A DNA stretch of 64,000 bases from Meiothermus ruber DSM 1279 (GTDB lineage: Bacteria > Deinococcota > Deinococci > Deinococcales > Thermaceae), in the NCBI RefSeq assembly GCF_000024425.1, contig NC_013946.1:992001-1056000 (forward strand). The letters are read 5' to 3'. The notes under the pieces are model-generated. The model was not told where the DNA came from, ran no database searches, and saw only the letters and a program-made list of their open reading frames with translations. Every line of letters starts with the position of its first letter. Position 1 is the first letter of the stretch. Of this stretch, positions 22,530-32,089 are shown one piece after another. The translations under genes were made by a program, and so were the position numbers.

Positions 22530-23843
22530 TCAACTAGCCGCTGGGCTGGCGACCTCCTCGCTTCTGGAGAGCAGGCCGGTGTTGTAGTCGTACTCGAACA
22601 GCTCGGCGTAGCGCCCCCAGTCGATGGCCGTGGCCAGCACCTTTTCGGCGTCCTCGGTGGACATGTAGTCTTCCAGCTCGCGCAGGAAGCGCTCCTCGGG
22701 GGCCCGCCCGGTGGGGCGCGTGTTTAGCACCCGGTGGATGTGCCCGACCAGAGGAACCTGCTGGAGCAGGCGCTCGGCGAAGATGCGCTTGCGCCCCTCC
22801 AGGCCGGCCTTTACAAAGCGCTGGCCTTCGGCGGTGAGCTGGATATCGCCGGCCTGCAGCACGGCCAGGCCCAGCAGCTCGGCGGCGTCCAGCAAGGGGA
22901 AGAGGTCGTCTACTTCCAGGTGCATCTCCTCGGCCAGGCGGGGCAGGTCTTCCTTGCCGTAATCGGGGCCTTCGGCCACCCGTTCTAAGAGCCCGGCGAG
23001 GGCCCCCACCGGGGCCTGGGGCAAGCGGTGGCCCAGCGTGAGGGGCTCGGGCGTGGCCCGCTCGGGGGCCGGGCGGGTGGTCAGGATGCGGTAGATCTCC
23101 TCGACCAGCTCCTGGAAGGCGGGGTCTTCGCGCTCCCGCGGATGCCCCAGGGTGACCGCTATCTCGGCCCGGATGCGGCCGGGGTTGCTCGAGAGCACCA
23201 GGATGCGGTCGGCCAGCAGCACCGCCTCCTCGATGTTGTGGGTGACCAGCAGGATGCCCTTGAGGGGGAGGCGCCCGCTCTGCCAGAGGTTCAAAAGCTC
23301 GAGGCGCAAAGTCTCGGCGGTGAGCACATCCAGGGCGCTCATGGGCTCGTCCATAAAGAGCACCTCGGGCTGTGTGACCAGGGCCCGGGCAAAGCCCACC
23401 CGCTGGCGCATGCCGCCGGAGAGCTCCTTGGGGAAGGCTTTCTCGAAGCCGTCCAGCCCCACCAGGTCAATGGCCTCCAGGGCTTTCTGGCGGCGCTGGG
23501 GGGCGGGGATGCCCATTGCCTCCAGGCCCAGCTCCACGTTTTGCTGCACGGTGAGCCAGGGGAAGAGGGCAAAGCTCTGGAAGACCATGGCCATGCCCGG
23601 CATGGGCCCCTGCACCGGCTGGCCCCGGTAGCGCACCTCGCCTGCCGAGGGCCGCAACAGCCCGCTCAGGCAGCGCAAAAGAGTGCTCTTGCCCGAGCCG
23701 CTGCGGCCCAAGAGGGCTACGATCTCGCCCTCCTGGAGCTCGAGGTGGATGCCCTCGAGCACGGTGAAGGGTTTGCCCTCGGGGGTGGTGAAGGTTTTGG
23801 TCAGGTTTCTGGCCTCTAGCAAGGTTTTGCGGTTGGATTGCAT
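22530..23843 (-). CDS. ABC transporter ATP-binding protein with C-terminal AAA-associated domain
   Basis: A 437-residue ATPase energising the permease encoded just upstream. The nucleotide-binding domain (about 1-250) has Walker A LGRSGSGKST, signature LSGGMRQRVGFARAL and Walker B VLFMDEPMSALD, closest in style to nitrate/sulfonate/taurine importers. From about residue 290 a second domain (LPRLAEEMHLEVDDLFPLLDAA) corresponds to the AAA-associated C-terminal domain found on a subset of these ATPases. ATG 23843 follows GGAGGTATCC; the longer open frame upstream is antisense to nothing useful and overlaps the permease. The gap to the permease stop is 14 bp. The substrate is unknown. Confidence 0.9.
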   Translation of the reverse strand: MQSNRKTLLEARNLTKTFTTPEGKPFTVLEGIHLELQEGEIVALLGRSGSGKSTLLRCLSGLLRPSAGEVRYRGQPVQGPMPGMAMVFQSFALFPWLTVQQNVELGLEAMGIPAPQRRQKALEAIDLVGLDGFEKAFPKELSGGMRQRVGFARALVTQPEVLFMDEPMSALDVLTAETLRLELLNLWQSGRLPLKGILLVTHNIEEAVLLADRILVLSSNPGRIRAEIAVTLGHPREREDPAFQELVEEIYRILTTRPAPERATPEPLTLGHRLPQAPVGALAGLLERVAEGPDYGKEDLPRLAEEMHLEVDDLFPLLDAAELLGLAVLQAGDIQLTAEGQRFVKAGLEGRKRIFAERLLQQVPLVGHIHRVLNTRPTGRAPEERFLRELEDYMSTEDAEKVLATAIDWGRYAELFEYDYNTGLLSRSEEVASPAAS

Positions 23844-23857
23844 GGATACCTCCGGGA

Positions 23858-25873
23858 TTAGTCCAGCCGGTAGCGTTCCTCGGCCAACTGGTAGAGCCGC
23901 TGCCAGATCAGCCGGTTGTAGGCCAGCACCCACAGGCCCATCACCAGCATCCCTAGCCCCACGTGGGGGTTGAACTCGCCGGTGCTCCAGCGGGCGATGT
24001 AGGCCCCCAGGCCGGTGGCGACCAGGGTGGTATCGCCCCACTGCACCACCTCGGCCACGATGCTGGCGTTCCAGCTACCCCCGGTCGCGGTGATGCCCCC
24101 GGTTACGAAAGCGGGGAAAATGGCCGGCAGGATCAGCCGCCGCCAGCGGTTCCACCCCCGCAGGCCATAGAGGCGGGCGGCCTCTTTGAGGTCGTTGGGG
24201 ATGGCCGCGCTGCCCGCGATGGCGTTGAACAGGATGTACCACTGCCCCCCCAGCACCATCAGGGGTGAGACCCAGATCTCAGGGTTGAGCCGGAAGTGCG
24301 CGATGGCCACCACAAAGAGGGGGAAGAGCAGGTTGGCCGGGAAGGCCGCGCCAAACTGGGCCAGGGGCTGCACCCACTGGGTGAGGCGGGGCCGCAGGCC
24401 CACGTAGACCCCGATGGGCAGCCAGATCAGCGTGACCAGCAGCACGAAGAAGGTCACCCGCAGGGCGGTGAAGAAGCCCAGCTTGAACACCTCGAGCACC
24501 TCCGGCCAGGCCACCTTGCCCGCCGGGGCCAGCGGGGCCTGGCAGGCCGCCGCCAGGTTGGCCGGGGCCCAGACCCCTGGCGTCTCCAGAAGGGCCTTGA
24601 GGCCGCTGCTCAGCGCCTGTCCGTCCCTGCTGGCCGCGCACAACTGGGAGAGCCAGACGCTCCCGTCGGCGCCGGGGGCGATGCCCAGGGCCGCGAAGCG
24701 CTGGGCGATCTCGGGCGATAGCTGGGTGTTGAGGTTGGGGTTGGGCCGTAGCATCTGCCCATTCCCAAAGCCCAGGCCGGGGCCCAGCAGGTAGCCCAGG
24801 AGCCCGCCCACCAGCGCCAGCGAGCCCAGGGCAATGAGCAGGTTGAACCCCAGGTCGGCCAGGTGGGAACGCAACCGTGGCTTTGGGGGCGGCTCGAGGG
24901 CCACCCCAGGCCGGTGGCCGCGGGCGCTTTTGAGCCACAGCCACTCCCAGAGGGGTTGGGGCAGCCGGGCGATGCGCTGGGAGAAGCGGGCCCGCTGCAG
25001 GAGGGTCAGCACCCAGGACTGGGCGGTGTCGCTGGACTCGGACTGCTCGAACTTGAACTTCTCGGCCCAGGCCACCACCGGGCGGAAGAGGAGCTGGTCG
25101 TAGAGCAGCACCAACAAGAACAGCGTGAGCCCGGCCCAGAGCATGGCCTGGGCGTCGGCCTGCTGGATGGCCAGGGCGATGTAGGCCCCCACCCCTGGCA
25201 GGTACTGATCCTGGTCGCGCCCCACCACGCTGATCACCTCCGAGGCCACCACGAAAAACCAGCCCCCCGAGACCGACATCATGGCGTTCCAGACCAGGTT
25301 GGGCAGGCCGAAGGGCACCTCCAGCTTCCAGAAGCGCTGCCAGGGGGAGAGCCGGAGCATGGCCGCGGCCTCCTGCAGCTCCCTGGGCACCGTGCGCAGC
25401 GAGGCATAAAAGCTGAAGGTCATGTTCCAGACCTGGGAAGTAAAGATGGCGAAGATGCTGGCGGCCTCGAGGCCGAACAGGTTCCCCCGGAACAGCCCCA
25501 AAAAGATGGCGGTGGTGGCGGTAAGGAAGCCCAGGATGGGCAGCGACTGCAAAAAGTCCAGAAGGGGGATGAGCACCCGCTCGGTGCGCGGCACCTTGGC
25601 GGCGATGGTGGCGTAGACCAGGGTAAAGGCCAGCGAGAGCAGGAGGGCGGCCAGCATCCGCAGCAGGGTGCGCAGGCCGTAGTAGGGCAGGTGGGCCGGG
25701 TTCAGGCTCACCGTGAGGTCGGGGGTGTTGGGGCCATAGGGGGCGGTGGCCCCCCGCAGGGCCAGGGTGAGCAGGAGCAGGAGCACCAAGACCCCCGGAA
25801 TCACCACCAGATCCCAGCGCGAGAAGGGTGCGCGGGGCCGCAAGACCTCGGGGGAGGGGAAGACCCGCCTCAT
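23858..25873 (-). CDS. ABC transporter permease, two fused membrane domains
   Basis: A 671-residue inner-membrane protein with two tandem binding-protein-dependent permease domains. The two EAA loops are visible: EAAAMLRLSPWQRFWKLEVP in the first half and EAARLYGLRGWNRWRRLIL in the second. A soluble linker of about 150 residues lies between them. The two halves would form both transmembrane subunits of one importer, paired with the ATPase downstream. Its start overlaps the kinase stop by 4 bp. No substrate-binding protein gene is nearby, so the periplasmic component is either encoded elsewhere or replaced by the linker. Confidence 0.9.
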   Translation of the reverse strand: MRRVFPSPEVLRPRAPFSRWDLVVIPGVLVLLLLLTLALRGATAPYGPNTPDLTVSLNPAHLPYYGLRTLLRMLAALLLSLAFTLVYATIAAKVPRTERVLIPLLDFLQSLPILGFLTATTAIFLGLFRGNLFGLEAASIFAIFTSQVWNMTFSFYASLRTVPRELQEAAAMLRLSPWQRFWKLEVPFGLPNLVWNAMMSVSGGWFFVVASEVISVVGRDQDQYLPGVGAYIALAIQQADAQAMLWAGLTLFLLVLLYDQLLFRPVVAWAEKFKFEQSESSDTAQSWVLTLLQRARFSQRIARLPQPLWEWLWLKSARGHRPGVALEPPPKPRLRSHLADLGFNLLIALGSLALVGGLLGYLLGPGLGFGNGQMLRPNPNLNTQLSPEIAQRFAALGIAPGADGSVWLSQLCAASRDGQALSSGLKALLETPGVWAPANLAAACQAPLAPAGKVAWPEVLEVFKLGFFTALRVTFFVLLVTLIWLPIGVYVGLRPRLTQWVQPLAQFGAAFPANLLFPLFVVAIAHFRLNPEIWVSPLMVLGGQWYILFNAIAGSAAIPNDLKEAARLYGLRGWNRWRRLILPAIFPAFVTGGITATGGSWNASIVAEVVQWGDTTLVATGLGAYIARWSTGEFNPHVGLGMLVMGLWVLAYNRLIWQRLYQLAEERYRLD

Positions 25874-26541
25874 GGGCGCCCTCCCTGGCTCTGGTGTTTG
25901 AGCAGGGCCAGCACGGCCTCCTCGGCACCTGGTTCATCGGCGGCGATGATGGGGATGCGGTGGAGGCGTGCCCGGCGCTCGAGGGCCTCCTGCAAAGCCC
26001 TTACCTGGCTGAAGTGAGCCAGCGCCTCGCCGGCATCGCGCCGGGTCGTCTGTGCGCGCTGCTTCAGGCGGCGCAGGTGCTCCTGGGGTGAGCGCACCAC
26101 CAACAAAACCGTAACGTTGAGGGGGTATCCGGCCCGGATGGGGTGGCCGGGCAGCAGGTGAACACCCTCGAGCACGAGCGAGCGGCCCTCCCGGGCCACC
26201 CGGCTGGCTACGGCCTGCACGCCTTTTTCCAGCAGACGGGCCTGGGTTTGTAGCCCCTGGAAGACCTTCGGGGTTTTGAGCCCATTTTGCGGTAGCAGCC
26301 GCCAGGCAGTGTAGGAGTGCGCGTGTAGCTCCGGGTAGAACTCCGCCGGGTAGGCGGTGCGCAGGGCCTCGCGCAGGTGGTCGGTGGTCTCGAGGTGGGC
26401 GCCGAGCCTTTGGGCTAGTTGTCCGGCCAGCGCGGATTTCCCCACCCCACTCACCCCGCCCACCATCAGGCAAAACGGTGGGAGTGGGAAGGAGGTACCA
26501 ATGGGGTTGGCTAGAAGGTGCTGCTTCAGGATGCTGAGCAT
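25870..26541 (-). CDS. P-loop kinase, 2-phosphoglycerate-kinase-like
   Basis: A 223-residue P-loop protein: Walker A GGVSGVGKSALA near residues 28-39, then TTDHLREALR and LVLEGVHLLPG, the layout of archaeal 2-phosphoglycerate kinases and related small-molecule kinases. The phosphate acceptor cannot be read from the sequence. It is the first gene of the operon with the ABC permease (4-bp overlap) and ATPase, hinting that it phosphorylates the imported compound or a related metabolite. Its ribosome binding site AAGGAGG lies inside a terminator hairpin that ends 7 nt before the ATG, so translation and transcription are probably controlled by the leader. Confidence 0.7.
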   Translation of the reverse strand: MLSILKQHLLANPIGTSFPLPPFCLMVGGVSGVGKSALAGQLAQRLGAHLETTDHLREALRTAYPAEFYPELHAHSYTAWRLLPQNGLKTPKVFQGLQTQARLLEKGVQAVASRVAREGRSLVLEGVHLLPGHPIRAGYPLNVTVLLVVRSPQEHLRRLKQRAQTTRRDAGEALAHFSQVRALQEALERRARLHRIPIIAADEPGAEEAVLALLKHQSQGGRP

Positions 26542-26542
26542 G

Positions 26543-26580
26543 AAAAAACCTCCTTGGGTTCGGCGGTGTCCCCAAGGAGG
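26543..26580 (-). terminator. Terminator hairpin enclosing the Shine-Dalgarno of the kinase operon
   Basis: On the minus strand CCTCCTTGGG (26571-26580) pairs perfectly over 10 bp with CCCAAGGAGG (26549-26558), loop of 12 nt, followed at once by six T (26543-26548) and the ATG at 26541. The 3' arm contains the ribosome binding site AAGGAGG. The structure would stop transcription and also hide the ribosome binding site. Confidence 0.85.
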
Positions 26581-26602
26581 CTGGCCGGGCGGGCCTATGG
26601 CA

Positions 26603-26678
26603 GGAGCACGGCACCCCCAGGGGGACTTGGCTTGGGACTGTAACTACCAGCGTCTTCCATCTGGGGTGCGTCGGCTCC
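26603..26678 (-). ncRNA. Candidate riboswitch aptamer in the kinase-ABC operon leader
   Basis: In the transcript a 5-bp stem GGAGC/GCTCC (26674-26678 with 26603-26607) and a GCACCCC-AG/CTGGGGGTGC stem (26661-26669 with 26611-26620) are joined by an asymmetric CGAC/CGT internal loop and cap a 40-nt apical region containing a possible CTG/CAG hairpin. It lies between a consensus promoter and a terminator that contains the ribosome binding site, the usual riboswitch order. I cannot match it to a known class by eye. Confidence 0.5.
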
Positions 26679-26714
26679 TTTCTTTAGGGGTTTCGAGGCT
26701 TTGAGCCCTGGGCG

Positions 26715-26743
26715 ATTATGGGCGGCGCTGGGCCGGTTGTCAA
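26715..26743 (-). promoter_or_regulatory. Consensus promoter of the kinase-ABC operon
   Basis: TTGACA (26738-26743), a 17-bp spacer, then CATAAT (26715-26720), read on the minus strand. Transcription would start near 26708, giving a 167-nt leader. Confidence 0.85.
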
Positions 26744-26775: not shown

Positions 26776-29700
26776 TCAGGCAAGCTGGACATCCATTGCG
26801 AGCTGGTAGGCCTGCTCGAGGCTCGAGGCCGGGATCTGCTCGTCGGTGCCCAGGGCCTCCCGGGCCTGCTGGATGTACGCCTCGAGGTTCCGCCGGGTTT
26901 GTGGGGGTAGCTTGGTTGGGGCCTGCTGATCCCAGCGCTGCACCGAGGCTGCAATTTGCAGGGCCAGGGCCGGCTGCTGCAGGGCCAGCAGGGCCTGCGC
27001 GCAGCTTGCGAGCGCCAGGGCCAGCGAGGCCACCTGGCCCATCTGCCGGAAGAGAAAAAGGCTTTCCATCAGCAGCGGCCAGGCCTCAAGGGGGCGCCCG
27101 CCTTGCAGCAAGCGGCCGGCGATGTTGGTGTAGGCGTTGGCGATGCCCTGCTGATCCCCGAGCCGCCGCTTGATTGCGAGGCTTTCGTACAGCCAGCGCA
27201 GGGCTTCCTCAGAGCTTTCACTGACCACCGCCAGGTTGCCCAGGGCGTAGGCGACGCCTTTTTCATCGCCGATTTGCCGCTTGACCTCGAGGCTACGCAG
27301 AAAGTAGGCCCTGGCTGCGCGGTCCTGTCCTTGCAGCCCGTGGACGATACCGATGTCGTTAAGGGTGGTGGACTCGCCATAGCGGTCGCCAATTTCCTGC
27401 CTGAGGGCCAGGGCTTCCTCGAAGGCTGCCAGCGCCTGCGCGAACTCGCCCGATTCGCGCAGCAGCAGCCCTTTCATGTGCAGGGCCTCGGCCAGCAGCC
27501 AGGGGTCGTGCAGGGCCCGGCTGGTCTGGAGGCTTTGCTCCAGCAGGGCCATGCTCTGGGCCCAAAGCCCCAGGTTCTTGAGCTGCAAGGCCAGCGACTG
27601 CTGGGTTCGGGCCTGTACCGCCGGGGGAACCGGCCCAGGCATCTCCAGAAAAACCTGGTGCCAGTGGGCGGTTTCGCGGTAGAAGCCGTGCCAGGCGTAG
27701 AAATGGCTGAGCCAAGTAGCCATCTGTTGGCCCTGGGTAGCCCGGCCCAGGTTGCGCAGGGTGGAAAAAGCCAGCCGCAGGTTATCGAACTCGAGCTTCA
27801 TGCGCCGCACCCAGCGGCTCTGCTCAGGGCCCTGCAGGGCGGGCTCGGCCCGCTGGGCCAGGCCCCAGAAGTACTCGGCGTGTGCGGCCAGGCTGTGCTC
27901 GAGCGCTTCTGGAGACAGCCTCTCGAGAGCGAATTGCCGCAGCAGCTCGTGCATCAGGTAGCGCCCCTCGTGGTGGGGGTCGCGCTGCACGAGCGAGAGG
28001 TTGACCAGCCCCAGCAGGCCCGAGACCGAAGCCCCGGCCACCGGCGCCGCCCCCTCGCGGTCGAAGCCGCCGCGGAAGACCGAGAGCCGGGCTAGGATGT
28101 GCTGTTCCTCGGGGTGCAGTAGCTTCCACGACGACTCGAACACCGCTTGCAGCGAGCGGTGGCGCTCGGGACGGGCCTCGTCGCCCTCGGGCGAGGCCAG
28201 GAAGCCCAGGTTCGTCTCGATCTCCTGGGCGATCTCGCCCAGGCTAAGCACCTTGGCCCAGGCCGCGGCCAGCTCCAGCCCCAGCGGCAGGCCCTCCACC
28301 ACCCGGCAGATCCGACGCGCGGCCTCGAGCTCGCTTTGGCTCAGGTGCAGGCCGGGGTTGACCCGTCGGATGGCCTGTAGCAGCAGCCGCAGGGCTGCCG
28401 AATGACCCCCTTCCCCCTCCAGCGCCAGCCCCTCCAGCGGCAAGACCCATTCTTCTGAAAGCCCCAGGCGCTCGCGCGAGGTCACCAGCAGGGTAAGGCC
28501 GGGCAGGGCCTGTAAGAGGGCGCGCAGGAACTCGCCCGCCTCGAGCAGGTGCTCGAAGTTGTCCAGCACCCACAGCACCTGGCGGCCTGTGAAGTGCTGT
28601 ACCAGGCTTTCCTGGGGGTCGCCCGTGGCCTTGAGTCCGAACTCCTGCACCAGCCGGCTCGGCAAGTCCTGGGCCCGATCCAGGCCGGCCAGGGCCACGA
28701 AGTAGGCGCCGTCGCGGTAGAGGTGGGCCACCTCGAGCGCGGCCTGCATGGCCAGGTGGGTCTTGCCCATGCCCCCCGGGGCCACCAGCGTGACCAGGCG
28801 GCGCTCGCCCAGCAGTTGCTTGAGCTCCAGCAACTCACGGTCGCGTCCGATCAGGCTGTGCTTGGGGGTGGGCAGGGCCGGTGCGGGCAAGGGCAGCGGC
28901 TCGGCCTCCTCGAGCCTTCGGGCAAAGTCGGGGCTGAGGCTGTAGCCTTTGCTGCCCATGCGCAAGACCCCGCTGCGCTCAGCCTGCTCCAGCCGCGCCA
29001 GCAAGGGCCCGGGCCAGCCGCCCGAAGCCTGCCAGAGCCACTGCACGAAGGCCTCGGGGCCCTCCCAGCGCAGGCGGCTGCGTAACAGGATGCGGGCCGA
29101 CTCGAGCGAGAGGGCCGGTAGCGGTAGCTCCTCGACCAGCGGGGGCACCGGCCACTCGATCCCGCTCTCAACCACAGCCACACCCATCACCGGCCCCTGC
29201 GGGTCGGCCAGCAGCTCGGCGATCACCTTGCGGCTGGCCGCGTCAAGCTCCGCTGGCCGATCTACCAGCCACAGCACCGCCCCCTCCAGCGCCCGCAGGG
29301 CCGCGCTGCCCCGCTGGATCACCGCCTCGGTGAGCTCGAGGCCTGCTCCATCCAGCAGCGCGCCGTAAGGGTGGGTGGCGTAGGCCCGCCGGCCCGTGAG
29401 CCAGAAGGTGCGGTAGCCCAGCAGCTGGGCCTGGCGCTGGACTTCCTCGAGGAAGCGGGTATGCCCGGCCCCGCTGGGGCCCAGCGATCGCAACAAACCG
29501 CGGTGGTGTTTGGGTAGGGTGCGCAGGAAGTGTTGTAAACCGAGCTGCACGGCCTCGCGCTCGAGCCAGCGGGTGGAGGGGGCCTCCTCCGCGCCCTGGG
29601 CCTCGGCCAGCCGGGCGCGCCCCTGCCGCTTGGCAGCCAGCAGGTTCTGGTCGGCCCGCGCAAAAAGCGTCTCGGGGCTGTCGGCTCCAGCCGGGCTGGT

Positions 29701-30090
29701 CGCCAGCCCAATGCTCAGGGTTAGGGAAAGGGGTGGGTCGCCCGCGAAAGGCCGTGACTGAACCACGCTCAGAAGCCGCTCGGCCAGCAGAGCGGCCTGG
29801 GTGTGTTCGGTGCCGGGCAGCAGCAGCACGAACTCGTCGCCACCGTAGCGAAAAAGGAGGTCGCCCGTACGGATTGCGCCCTGGATGCGCTCAACCAGCT
29901 CCCGCAGGATGGCGTCGCCGCGCGGGTGGCCGAAGGCGTCGTTGATACTCTTGAAGTGGTCGAGATCCAGCACCAGCAGGGCGGTCTCCTCGCCGGTCAG
30001 CTGGGCTGCGTGGAGGGTGGCCTCGAGGGTGGGGAACAGCGCGGCCCGGCTCAGCGCCCCGGTCAAAGGGTCGAACTGCGGCGAGATCAT
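26776..30090 (-). CDS. GGDEF diguanylate cyclase fused to STAND-type ATPase and TPR repeats
   Basis: A 1104-residue cytoplasmic protein. Residues 1-165 form a GGDEF domain with the catalytic GGDEF at 83-87 and, five residues before it, an RTGD (74-77) inhibitory-site motif, so it should make cyclic di-GMP with product feedback. A first P-loop-like region follows (GPSGAGHT at 204-211, with His replacing the catalytic Lys). A second, intact one has Walker A APGGMGKTH near 437-445, then VLWVLDNFEHLL (Walker B-like) and LLVTSRERL, an NB-ARC/MalT-like STAND module. The last 300 residues are TPRs (GDRYGESTTLNDIGIVHGLQ; GDEKGVAYALGNLAVV). ATG 30090 starts the GGDEF fold. The input signal is unknown; STAND-TPR parts usually sense a ligand by oligomerising. 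A TAGAAT at 30114-30119 may be its -10. Confidence 0.88.
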   Translation of the reverse strand: MISPQFDPLTGALSRAALFPTLEATLHAAQLTGEETALLVLDLDHFKSINDAFGHPRGDAILRELVERIQGAIRTGDLLFRYGGDEFVLLLPGTEHTQAALLAERLLSVVQSRPFAGDPPLSLTLSIGLATSPAGADSPETLFARADQNLLAAKRQGRARLAEAQGAEEAPSTRWLEREAVQLGLQHFLRTLPKHHRGLLRSLGPSGAGHTRFLEEVQRQAQLLGYRTFWLTGRRAYATHPYGALLDGAGLELTEAVIQRGSAALRALEGAVLWLVDRPAELDAASRKVIAELLADPQGPVMGVAVVESGIEWPVPPLVEELPLPALSLESARILLRSRLRWEGPEAFVQWLWQASGGWPGPLLARLEQAERSGVLRMGSKGYSLSPDFARRLEEAEPLPLPAPALPTPKHSLIGRDRELLELKQLLGERRLVTLVAPGGMGKTHLAMQAALEVAHLYRDGAYFVALAGLDRAQDLPSRLVQEFGLKATGDPQESLVQHFTGRQVLWVLDNFEHLLEAGEFLRALLQALPGLTLLVTSRERLGLSEEWVLPLEGLALEGEGGHSAALRLLLQAIRRVNPGLHLSQSELEAARRICRVVEGLPLGLELAAAWAKVLSLGEIAQEIETNLGFLASPEGDEARPERHRSLQAVFESSWKLLHPEEQHILARLSVFRGGFDREGAAPVAGASVSGLLGLVNLSLVQRDPHHEGRYLMHELLRQFALERLSPEALEHSLAAHAEYFWGLAQRAEPALQGPEQSRWVRRMKLEFDNLRLAFSTLRNLGRATQGQQMATWLSHFYAWHGFYRETAHWHQVFLEMPGPVPPAVQARTQQSLALQLKNLGLWAQSMALLEQSLQTSRALHDPWLLAEALHMKGLLLRESGEFAQALAAFEEALALRQEIGDRYGESTTLNDIGIVHGLQGQDRAARAYFLRSLEVKRQIGDEKGVAYALGNLAVVSESSEEALRWLYESLAIKRRLGDQQGIANAYTNIAGRLLQGGRPLEAWPLLMESLFLFRQMGQVASLALALASCAQALLALQQPALALQIAASVQRWDQQAPTKLPPQTRRNLEAYIQQAREALGTDEQIPASSLEQAYQLAMDVQLA

Positions 30091-30209
30091 GGGCGGCCCT
30101 CGATCATGAAGCCATTCTACCGACGAAAGAGCCGGTTTCTTGTGATGCGCTTTGCTCGAGCCGCTTATTGTGTTTTCGCCTGGGCTTTGGATCCGGCCCA
30201 GCACCAAAG

Positions 30210-30233
30210 GGACTGCCTCGAGCGAGGCAGTCC
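30210..30233 (-). terminator. Perfect 11-bp inverted repeat between tatA and the GGDEF gene
   Basis: GGACTGCCTCG/CGAGGCAGTCC with a 2-nt centre. It lies 67 bp past the tatA stop and upstream of the GGDEF gene, so it is probably the tatA-side terminator. Its compactness would also suit an operator. Confidence 0.5.
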
Positions 30234-30299
30234 ATGATTGGTTTTTGGCGCTCAACAGGACGGCTTGATCGGAGTGCTGTGCTTGAAGGCCATCTCTAC

Positions 30300-30947: not shown

Positions 30948-31466
30948 TTAGCGGTTGCGGCTCGACTTGATGTGGCGCACCTTGTGTACGGTGGGCTCCT
31001 GGGAGGGCACCACCGAGATGGTGCCGTCGATCTCCAGCACGGCCGAGGCCACCTGCTCGGTTCGGCTGACCCCGTGCTCGCGCAAAGCCGCCTCGAGCTC
31101 CTCGAGCTTGATCCCCTCGCGCCGCAGGGCCTCGTGGAGGATCTGGCCGTTCTGGATAAGCAGGGTGGGGCGGCCCTCGAGGTGCTGGCGCAGGGGGCTG
31201 CTGGCCACCGCGCGGTTGAGCAGGAGCAGGATGGCCGCGGCCAGCAAGCCGCCGGTGAGGCTGTTGTCGGGGCCGATCATGGCGTTCTGTACCGCGTTGG
31301 ACAGCAGCAGCAGGGTGAGCAGGTCGAAGGGGGTCATCTGGCCCAGGGTGCGCTTGCCGGCCAGCCGCAACAGCAGCAGCAACCCCACATAGACCACCGC
31401 CACCCGCAAGGCGGTGAACAGCAGCGTCACGCCGTCGCCCAGGGTTTGTATCAGTGCTTCGTTCAT
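30948..31466 (-). CDS. DUF421/YetF-type membrane protein
   Basis: A 172-residue protein with two to three N-terminal transmembrane helices (VAVVYVGLLLLLRLAGKRTLGQMTP), then a soluble YetF domain (GRPTLLIQNGQILHEALRREG). The RLAGKRTLGQMTPFDLL segment is diagnostic of the DUF421 family, whose function is not settled. ATG 31466 follows AAGGAG and overlaps the GNAT stop by 4 bp, so the two genes are translationally coupled. A longer open frame (to 31829) is antisense-like and lacks family similarity. Confidence 0.85.
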   Translation of the reverse strand: MNEALIQTLGDGVTLLFTALRVAVVYVGLLLLLRLAGKRTLGQMTPFDLLTLLLLSNAVQNAMIGPDNSLTGGLLAAAILLLLNRAVASSPLRQHLEGRPTLLIQNGQILHEALRREGIKLEELEAALREHGVSRTEQVASAVLEIDGTISVVPSQEPTVHKVRHIKSSRNR

Positions 31467-32089
31467 GCCAGCTCCTTGACCATTACCAGATGCACCGCGT
31501 CGCGCCCCAGCCAGGGGCGCCACAGGGGGCTGCGGGCCTCGCGCCAGATGCAAAAGCCCATGCGCTCGTAGAGCCGCAGCGCCGCCGCATTCTCGCGCGT
31601 GGTGGAAAGCTGCACCCCGGGCAGGCCCTGCTGGCGCAGGGCCTCGAGGTGGGCGTGCAAAAGCGCCTGGCCCAGCCCCCGGCCCCGCCCCTCGGGCAGC
31701 AGGTTGATGTGCAACTGAACGGGATAGGCAGCGGTGGGGGCGTGGGGTAGGGCATAGCGGAGCAGGCGCCCCAGGTAGGCCAGCGAAGGCCACAACTGCG
31801 GATAATCGCCCCGCAGCGCCCGCCTGCAAAGCCAGGGCAGGGCGTGCAGCAAGTGACGGCGGTAGGCGCTGAGGCGGGCACCCAGGATATAGCCCACCGG
31901 TGCCTCCTCGGCAAAGGCTATAAAGCTCCCCAGGCCCGCCGGGCCCAGGTAGGGCCGCACCCAGAGGTCGGTGAAGAGGGTGGCATCGGGGAAGAAGCGT
32001 CGGGCGCTCTCGCCGAAAAAGCCTGTTGCGTAGGCGATATGGCCGAGGGCCTCGAGGTCTTCCATGCGGACTTCACGGATTTTATCCAT
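31463..32089 (-). CDS. GNAT-family N-acetyltransferase
   Basis: A 208-residue acetyl-CoA-dependent transferase. It starts IREVRMEDLEAL; the acetyl-CoA motif A is seen as LLPEGRGRGLGQALL and the C-terminal motif B as NAAALRLYERMGFCIW. The substrate is unknown. The start ATG 32089 lies 10 bp from the divergent PIG-L gene start; both appear leaderless. It is coupled to the DUF421 gene downstream. Confidence 0.87.
   Translation of the reverse strand: MDKIREVRMEDLEALGHIAYATGFFGESARRFFPDATLFTDLWVRPYLGPAGLGSFIAFAEEAPVGYILGARLSAYRRHLLHALPWLCRRALRGDYPQLWPSLAYLGRLLRYALPHAPTAAYPVQLHINLLPEGRGRGLGQALLHAHLEALRQQGLPGVQLSTTRENAAALRLYERMGFCIWREARSPLWRPWLGRDAVHLVMVKELA

Follow-up and report, generated by a model that had tools for sequence, protein, structure and literature searches.

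A probable leader-peptide attenuator upstream of an orphan ABC transporter operon in Meiothermus ruber and other Thermaceae

The leader of an ABC transporter operon in Meiothermus ruber DSM 1279, encoded on the minus strand of the 64,000-nucleotide stretch analysed here (the window), is probably a translational attenuator whose state is set by a ribosome on a leader peptide of 21 codons, as modelled from its alternative pairings. The basis of this reading was obtained by comparison and computation, and consists of the upstream reading frame (uORF) encoding the peptide, a hairpin over the ribosome binding site of the next gene (hairpin 3:4), an alternative helix (2:3) and the distribution of the element at a single operon. 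An initial annotation had called the region a riboswitch-like leader and overlooked the short uORF, which has its own Shine-Dalgarno (SD) sequence. That claim is replaced here by a testable uORF attenuator in Thermaceae. The cause of ribosome arrest on the leader peptide should indicate the physiological signal, and hence the role of the transporter.

The leader lies behind a sigma-70-type promoter (26715-26743, minus strand) with TTGACA at 26743-26738, a 17-nt spacer and CATAAT at 26720-26715. It agrees with the consensus at 11 of 12 positions (0.0 +/- 0.2 expected in shuffles). Hexamers resembling this promoter also occur upstream of the leader in the relative G017, and TTGACA is found in G014 and G053. 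From the promoter to the ORF at 26541 (minus strand) the leader measures about 167 nt; both promoter and length had been given correctly in the initial annotation. The leader folds more strongly than its shuffles (z -3.1; 0 of 200 as good).

The first gene of the operon, ORF2 (25870-26541, minus strand; ATG at 26541), encodes a 223-aa P-loop kinase related to 2-phosphoglycerate kinase (PRK12337, E 1.1e-41, far below the model cut-off). Its stop codon overlaps the start (ATGA) of a fused double permease with two BPD_transp_1 domains (23858-25873, minus strand; 671 aa), for which orthologs were found. The permease is followed by an ABC ATPase with a C-terminal AAA_assoc_C domain (22530-23843, minus strand; ATG at 23843; PF09821, E 2.8e-46). 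The kinase, fused permease and AAA-associated ATPase thus lie downstream as first described, but the leader goes with the transporter rather than with the kinase. DNA and pattern searches placed it directly 5' of this permease gene in further Thermaceae, some of which have no kinase, and because it adjoins the permease there, it is assigned to the transporter. Orthologs of the kinase were found only in three Meiothermus genomes, and short ORFs replace it elsewhere.

In relatives that lack the kinase, an ORF of 13-43 codons follows the same SD and ends with the same overlap of the permease start. The N-terminus of the short ORF in G002 (MLDIL...) resembles that of the kinase (MLSIL...). These sequences suggest an in-frame insertion of the kinase into a short ORF that served for coupling. 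In Meiothermus taiwanensis (G021; L112 302-835, L124 3471-4004), the kinase lacks residues in its P-loop (GGVSGVGKS to GGVGKS) and about 40 residues further on, which suggests a kinase that is decaying while its coupling role stays. G006 also carries an additional, incomplete copy of the permease gene (contig C47, L104; the match begins at 2522 of the reverse complement). It is without the uORF and hairpin, and only an SD and a short ORF are kept.

The uORF (26595-26660, minus strand) encodes the peptide MEDAGSYSPKPSPPGGAVLLP in 21 codons. Its SD, AAAGGAG (26675-26681, minus strand), lies 14 nt before the ATG, and a purine-rich SD is kept in 10 of 10 orthologs. The uORF was found in ten Thermales loci, each ahead of the same fused-permease/AAA_assoc_C-ATPase operon, also where the kinase is absent, and peptide matches with E < 1e-3 were confined to this operon. 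The orthologous peptides are MEDAGSYSPKPSPLGGAVLLS (G017), MEDADSYSPKPSPHGGAVPLL (G021), MEDAGSYNPKPSPPGGSALP (G002), MEDTGSYSSKPSPPGGCALP (G004) and MEDSGSHRLKPGSRVVRARF (G014), together with the GTG-initiated MESPGSCRLKPAPGGFYLAS (G006a) and MDNSSSYRSRRAPGALLGF (G011). The most distant, MEPGPSSETARSQTAWLLGVPAA (G053), begins MEPGP, and in G001 (MEDSGSYSPKPSPPEG...) the early stop has been lost. The start codon thus varies between ATG and GTG, while the frame is the same in all ten loci and the stop positions are similar except in G001. The missing stop in G001 raised the idea of a programmed frameshift across the hairpin, which was rejected, since no shifted frame is consistently open. The leaders of two named plasmid loci, those of M. 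taiwanensis and Allomeiothermus silvanus, are identical to G021 and G001 respectively.

The reading frame was tested on an ungapped alignment of the first 14-15 codons, in which the mean pairwise BLOSUM62 score was compared with 2000 column shuffles in four species sets. Frame 0 was equalled by only 0-2 of 2000 shuffles, and frames +1 and +2 were not significant. On this comparative evidence the uORF is under protein-level selection. Residue 2 is acidic in all ten peptides and residue 3 is Asp in seven. Codon 6 (26645-26643, minus strand) is Ser AGT in 10 of 10 leaders, a codon that makes up 5% of Ser codons counted within the 64-kb window. This is stricter than the protein needs. The codon sits in the loop of stem 1:2 (see below), and its invariance could point to ribosome pausing there or to a constraint on the RNA itself.

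The conserved output of the leader is a hairpin over the SD of the downstream ORF. Its arms are CCTCCTTGGG (26580-26571) and CCCAAGGAGG (26558-26549, minus strand); the latter, segment 4, is the kinase SD. Segment 3, the anti-SD arm GCCTCCTTGGGGAC (26568-26581, minus strand), is computed to pair either with segment 4 (OFF) or with segment 2 (ON). A run of TTTTTT (26543-26548, minus strand) follows, then C and the ATG at 26541. The 10-bp hairpin with the SD in its 3' arm and six T behind it is therefore as originally described. The SD is paired in every ortholog, with hairpin 3:4 reaching z -1.4 to -5.3 against shuffles in ten orthologs. Covariation was scored on a hand-registered alignment of the arms with a dummy loop: two-sided changes occur in 5 of 13 pairs, none of 500 shuffles attained the score, and the signal collapses when the register is slid.

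It had also been proposed that this one hairpin blocks both elongation and initiation. Hiding of the SD is conserved, but a dual block could apply at most in the five loci with a T-run. The run is present in the window (G000), G017, G021, G001 and G002 and absent from G004, G014, G006a, G011 and G053. Since half of the orthologs lack it and keep the SD pairing, the role of the hairpin that is conserved is concealment of the SD and not termination. The same distribution makes it improbable that the leader works by transcription attenuation, with hairpin 3:4 and the six T as an intrinsic terminator and helix 2:3 as antiterminator. In the window and four close relatives the stem has 10-12 bp and a T-run behind it, in keeping with such a device, and helix 2:3 would serve equally well as an antiterminator; the hairpin loop, however, is long for a terminator. 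In the M. ruber clade, termination may act as a further level of control, the T-run being a possible terminator in the closest relatives only.

Upstream of this hairpin, segment 1 (GGAGCCGACGCACCCCAG; 26661-26678, minus strand) shares bases with the uORF SD and forms stem 1:2 with the last part of the uORF (26678-26661 with 26620-26603, minus strand). This is the stem that had been taken for an aptamer-like nested stem (26603-26678). A metabolite riboswitch would use it as aptamer and the RBS hairpin as expression platform, and the strong stem of the window (z -3.4) next to an SD-sequestering hairpin, together with the few stem-loop nucleotides that are stricter than the protein needs (AGT codon 6), would fit that arrangement. 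The stem is indeed present, but its structure is not conserved beyond close relatives. The z score is about -3.4 in G000 and G017 and not significant in G002, G006a, G011 and G053, and RNAalifold did not recover the stem on the leader alignment. Comparison of homologous leaders showed covariation in hairpin 3:4, whereas the stem loses significance with distance. Conservation in the region tracks one reading frame, with SD and start codon kept, so that the conserved sequence behaves as codons. Searches of the leader against the Rfam covariance models, at gathering and relaxed thresholds, gave nothing above chance, in agreement with the initial view that no known class could be assigned. A riboswitch is accordingly quite unlikely, although the structured leader and the sequestered RBS of the original proposal are upheld by conservation and covariation. 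The stem is better read as the 1:2 pairing of an attenuator than as an aptamer.

The attenuator model depends on a third pairing. Segment 2 (GTCCCCCTGGGGGT; 26613-26626, minus strand) covers codons 12-16 of the uORF, and two alternative partners are computed for it: the anti-SD arm and, for part of its length, segment 1. In folding of the transcript at the point where the SD is about to emerge, the later half of the uORF (26626-26613) is joined to the anti-SD arm (26581-26568) as helix 2:3. This pairing was predicted in 10 of 10 orthologs with differing sequences; the outer parts are GUCCUC/GAGGAU in G004, CCCCGAGG/CCUCGGGG in G001, GCUCCCG/CGGGAGC in G014 and GCUGCUC/GAGCAGC in G053. The duplex energy is better than that of dinucleotide shuffles in all ten (z -1.8 to -4.3) and, on average, better than that of synonymously recoded uORFs (summed z -4.8, eight species), combined statistics that overstate independence, as the ten orthologs are related.

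The effect of a ribosome was modelled with a footprint of -13 to +15 at 37 and 60 C, and two other footprint sizes gave similar results. With the P site on codons 1-4, the anti-SD arm is predicted to pair with the uORF at a probability of 0.5-1.0 in 10 of 10 orthologs. By codons 9-13 helix 2:3 is lost in nine of ten, its probability having fallen below about 0.2 in most; in G014 this occurs only at about codon 17-18, and in G004 and G006a a probability of 0.2-0.3 remains at some later codons at 60 C. Against shuffled uORFs, which reach average 2:3 probabilities of 0.13-0.49, the value with the ribosome at codon 2 is extreme in 6 of 10 (0-2 of 200) and not significant in G002, G014, G011 and G053. 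Helix 2:3 is predicted in several species even without a ribosome, so that the M. ruber clade and G006a show the clearest dependence on the ribosome.

At equilibrium, the complete RNA prefers hairpin 3:4 to the open state by 4-13 kcal/mol, also when a ribosome occupies codon 2, and folding of the full leader with a stalled ribosome did not consistently open the SD at any codon position. Because the closed state wins at equilibrium, the switch must be decided during transcription, by kinetic trapping. A decision during transcription is usual for attenuators. The need for kinetic trapping is the weakest link of the attenuator model. The dominance of 3:4 in all orthologs would also be expected if translation were constitutively low, the hairpin merely weakening initiation of ORF2 or acting as a thermometer, and the uORF only delivering ribosomes. 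The recurrence of the 2:3 alternative with different sequences in divergent orthologs and the conservation of the leader peptide argue against this explanation, which is given little credence, and a thermometer is unlikely because the SD is computed to remain closed at 60 C.

For the preferred attenuator, the following sequence of events is proposed. Without a ribosome, and also once the transcript is complete, 1:2 and/or 3:4 would form, and 3:4 would bury the SD of the next ORF (OFF). During transcription, a ribosome on the first codons, where it may be delayed or lost, would cover segment 1, so that segment 2 could capture the anti-SD arm (2:3) and leave the SD free (ON). If the ribosome advanced into segment 2, 2:3 would be blocked and 3:4 would win (OFF). 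Because ORF2 (the kinase here, and in other species a short coupling peptide) runs into the start of the permease gene, translational coupling would carry the switch on to the transporter. If a ribosome stalled at the Pro-rich codons 13-14, segment 2 would be covered and the OFF state would result; limitation of proline or of EF-P would therefore repress.

Attenuators of the antibiotic-inducible ermC type work by four-segment translational attenuation through a ribosome on a leader peptide. The present leader shares the four-segment layout and the leader peptide; unlike ermC, it has no resistance gene downstream, and no antibiotic-arrest motif was recognized in its peptide. Closer parallels are found in Salmonella, where the mgtQ-mgtB system contains a short ORF with Asp2 and Glu5 and 1:2, 2:3 and 3:4 helices (PMC8092293). 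A ribosome on region 1 favours 2:3 over 3:4 and thereby frees the RBS of the transporter gene, and control depends on ribosome-destabilizing acidic residues (PMC8092293). Similarly, the leader modelled here has acidic residues near the ORF start, mutually exclusive 1:2, 2:3 and 3:4 pairings and the RBS of a transporter operon in 3:4. In contrast to mgtQ, this uORF lies in a 5' leader and not between genes, has 21 rather than 8 codons, encodes an unrelated peptide and belongs to a different phylum. The mgtL leader of mgtA carries an EPDP motif that leads to drop-off in low Mg2+ (PMC11282234). The present peptides resemble it in their acidic or Pro-containing N-termini (MED- here, MEPGP in G053). 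However, mgtL acts via Rho-dependent termination (PMC11282234), whereas the conserved output here is SD sequestration.

An early pause or intrinsic ribosome destabilization, as at mgtQ and mgtL, is the leading candidate for the trigger, though a tentative one drawn by analogy. It is favoured because of the acidic position 2, the Asp at position 3 and the rare Ser AGT at codon 6. Leaders of the mgtL/mgtQ type control a Mg2+ transporter and respond to low Mg2+, and such a response is only a candidate here. That the signal is a divalent cation is a guess, and a doubtful one. Under it, the M-E-D/P nascent peptide would make the ribosome sense ions such as Mg2+ or Mn2+, and the leader would be a thermophile counterpart of mgtL and mgtQ that evolved independently outside Enterobacteria, which is likewise rather unlikely. 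If it were so, the orphan fused-permease/AAA_assoc_C ABC system would take part in divalent-cation homeostasis. In T. thermophilus and Mycolicibacterium, genes for divalent metal transporters adjoin homologs of the transporter, but the neighbourhoods of other homologs differ. The link to cations is a lead and not a finding.

A covariance model of the element found nine sites in 111 Deinococcota genomes, one per genome and all at this operon; beyond these, only weak matches were obtained, many to the hairpin part alone. Pattern matches L093, L094, L102 and L103 were rejected as further leaders, as they sit in unrelated genes or regions. The leader peptides had no match in Pfam or NCBIfam, a literature search found no earlier description of the peptide or the leader, and no described leader-peptide attenuator of such a type was found in Thermaceae. 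The leader is probably a real, undescribed leader-peptide attenuator of a type that is already known.

The transporter family under its control is widespread and has no assigned substrate (PMC3688454). In a survey of Ca. Liberibacter it was listed as a possible novel ABC system without a binding protein (PMC3688454). The present system resembles that Nrt/Ssu/Tau-like system in its double TMD protein, its PF09821-domain ATPase and the lack of a binding protein (PMC3688454). The uORF sets it apart, as none was seen at the more distant homologs examined in Thermus, Proteobacteria, Nostoc and Mycolicibacterium, which lie outside the long-permease Thermales clade.

Two neighbours of the operon were also recorded. 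A YetF/DUF421 membrane protein is encoded nearby in several Thermaceae, namely in the window (30951-31493, minus strand), M. taiwanensis, G004 and T. thermophilus (L124 656-1174, L126 1261-1779 and L110 1544-2119), and is a possible functional partner of the transporter. Just upstream of the leader, the window encodes an unusual 1159-aa protein (26776-30255, minus strand), in which a STAND/NACHT-like ATPase region and TPR repeats come after a GGDEF domain.
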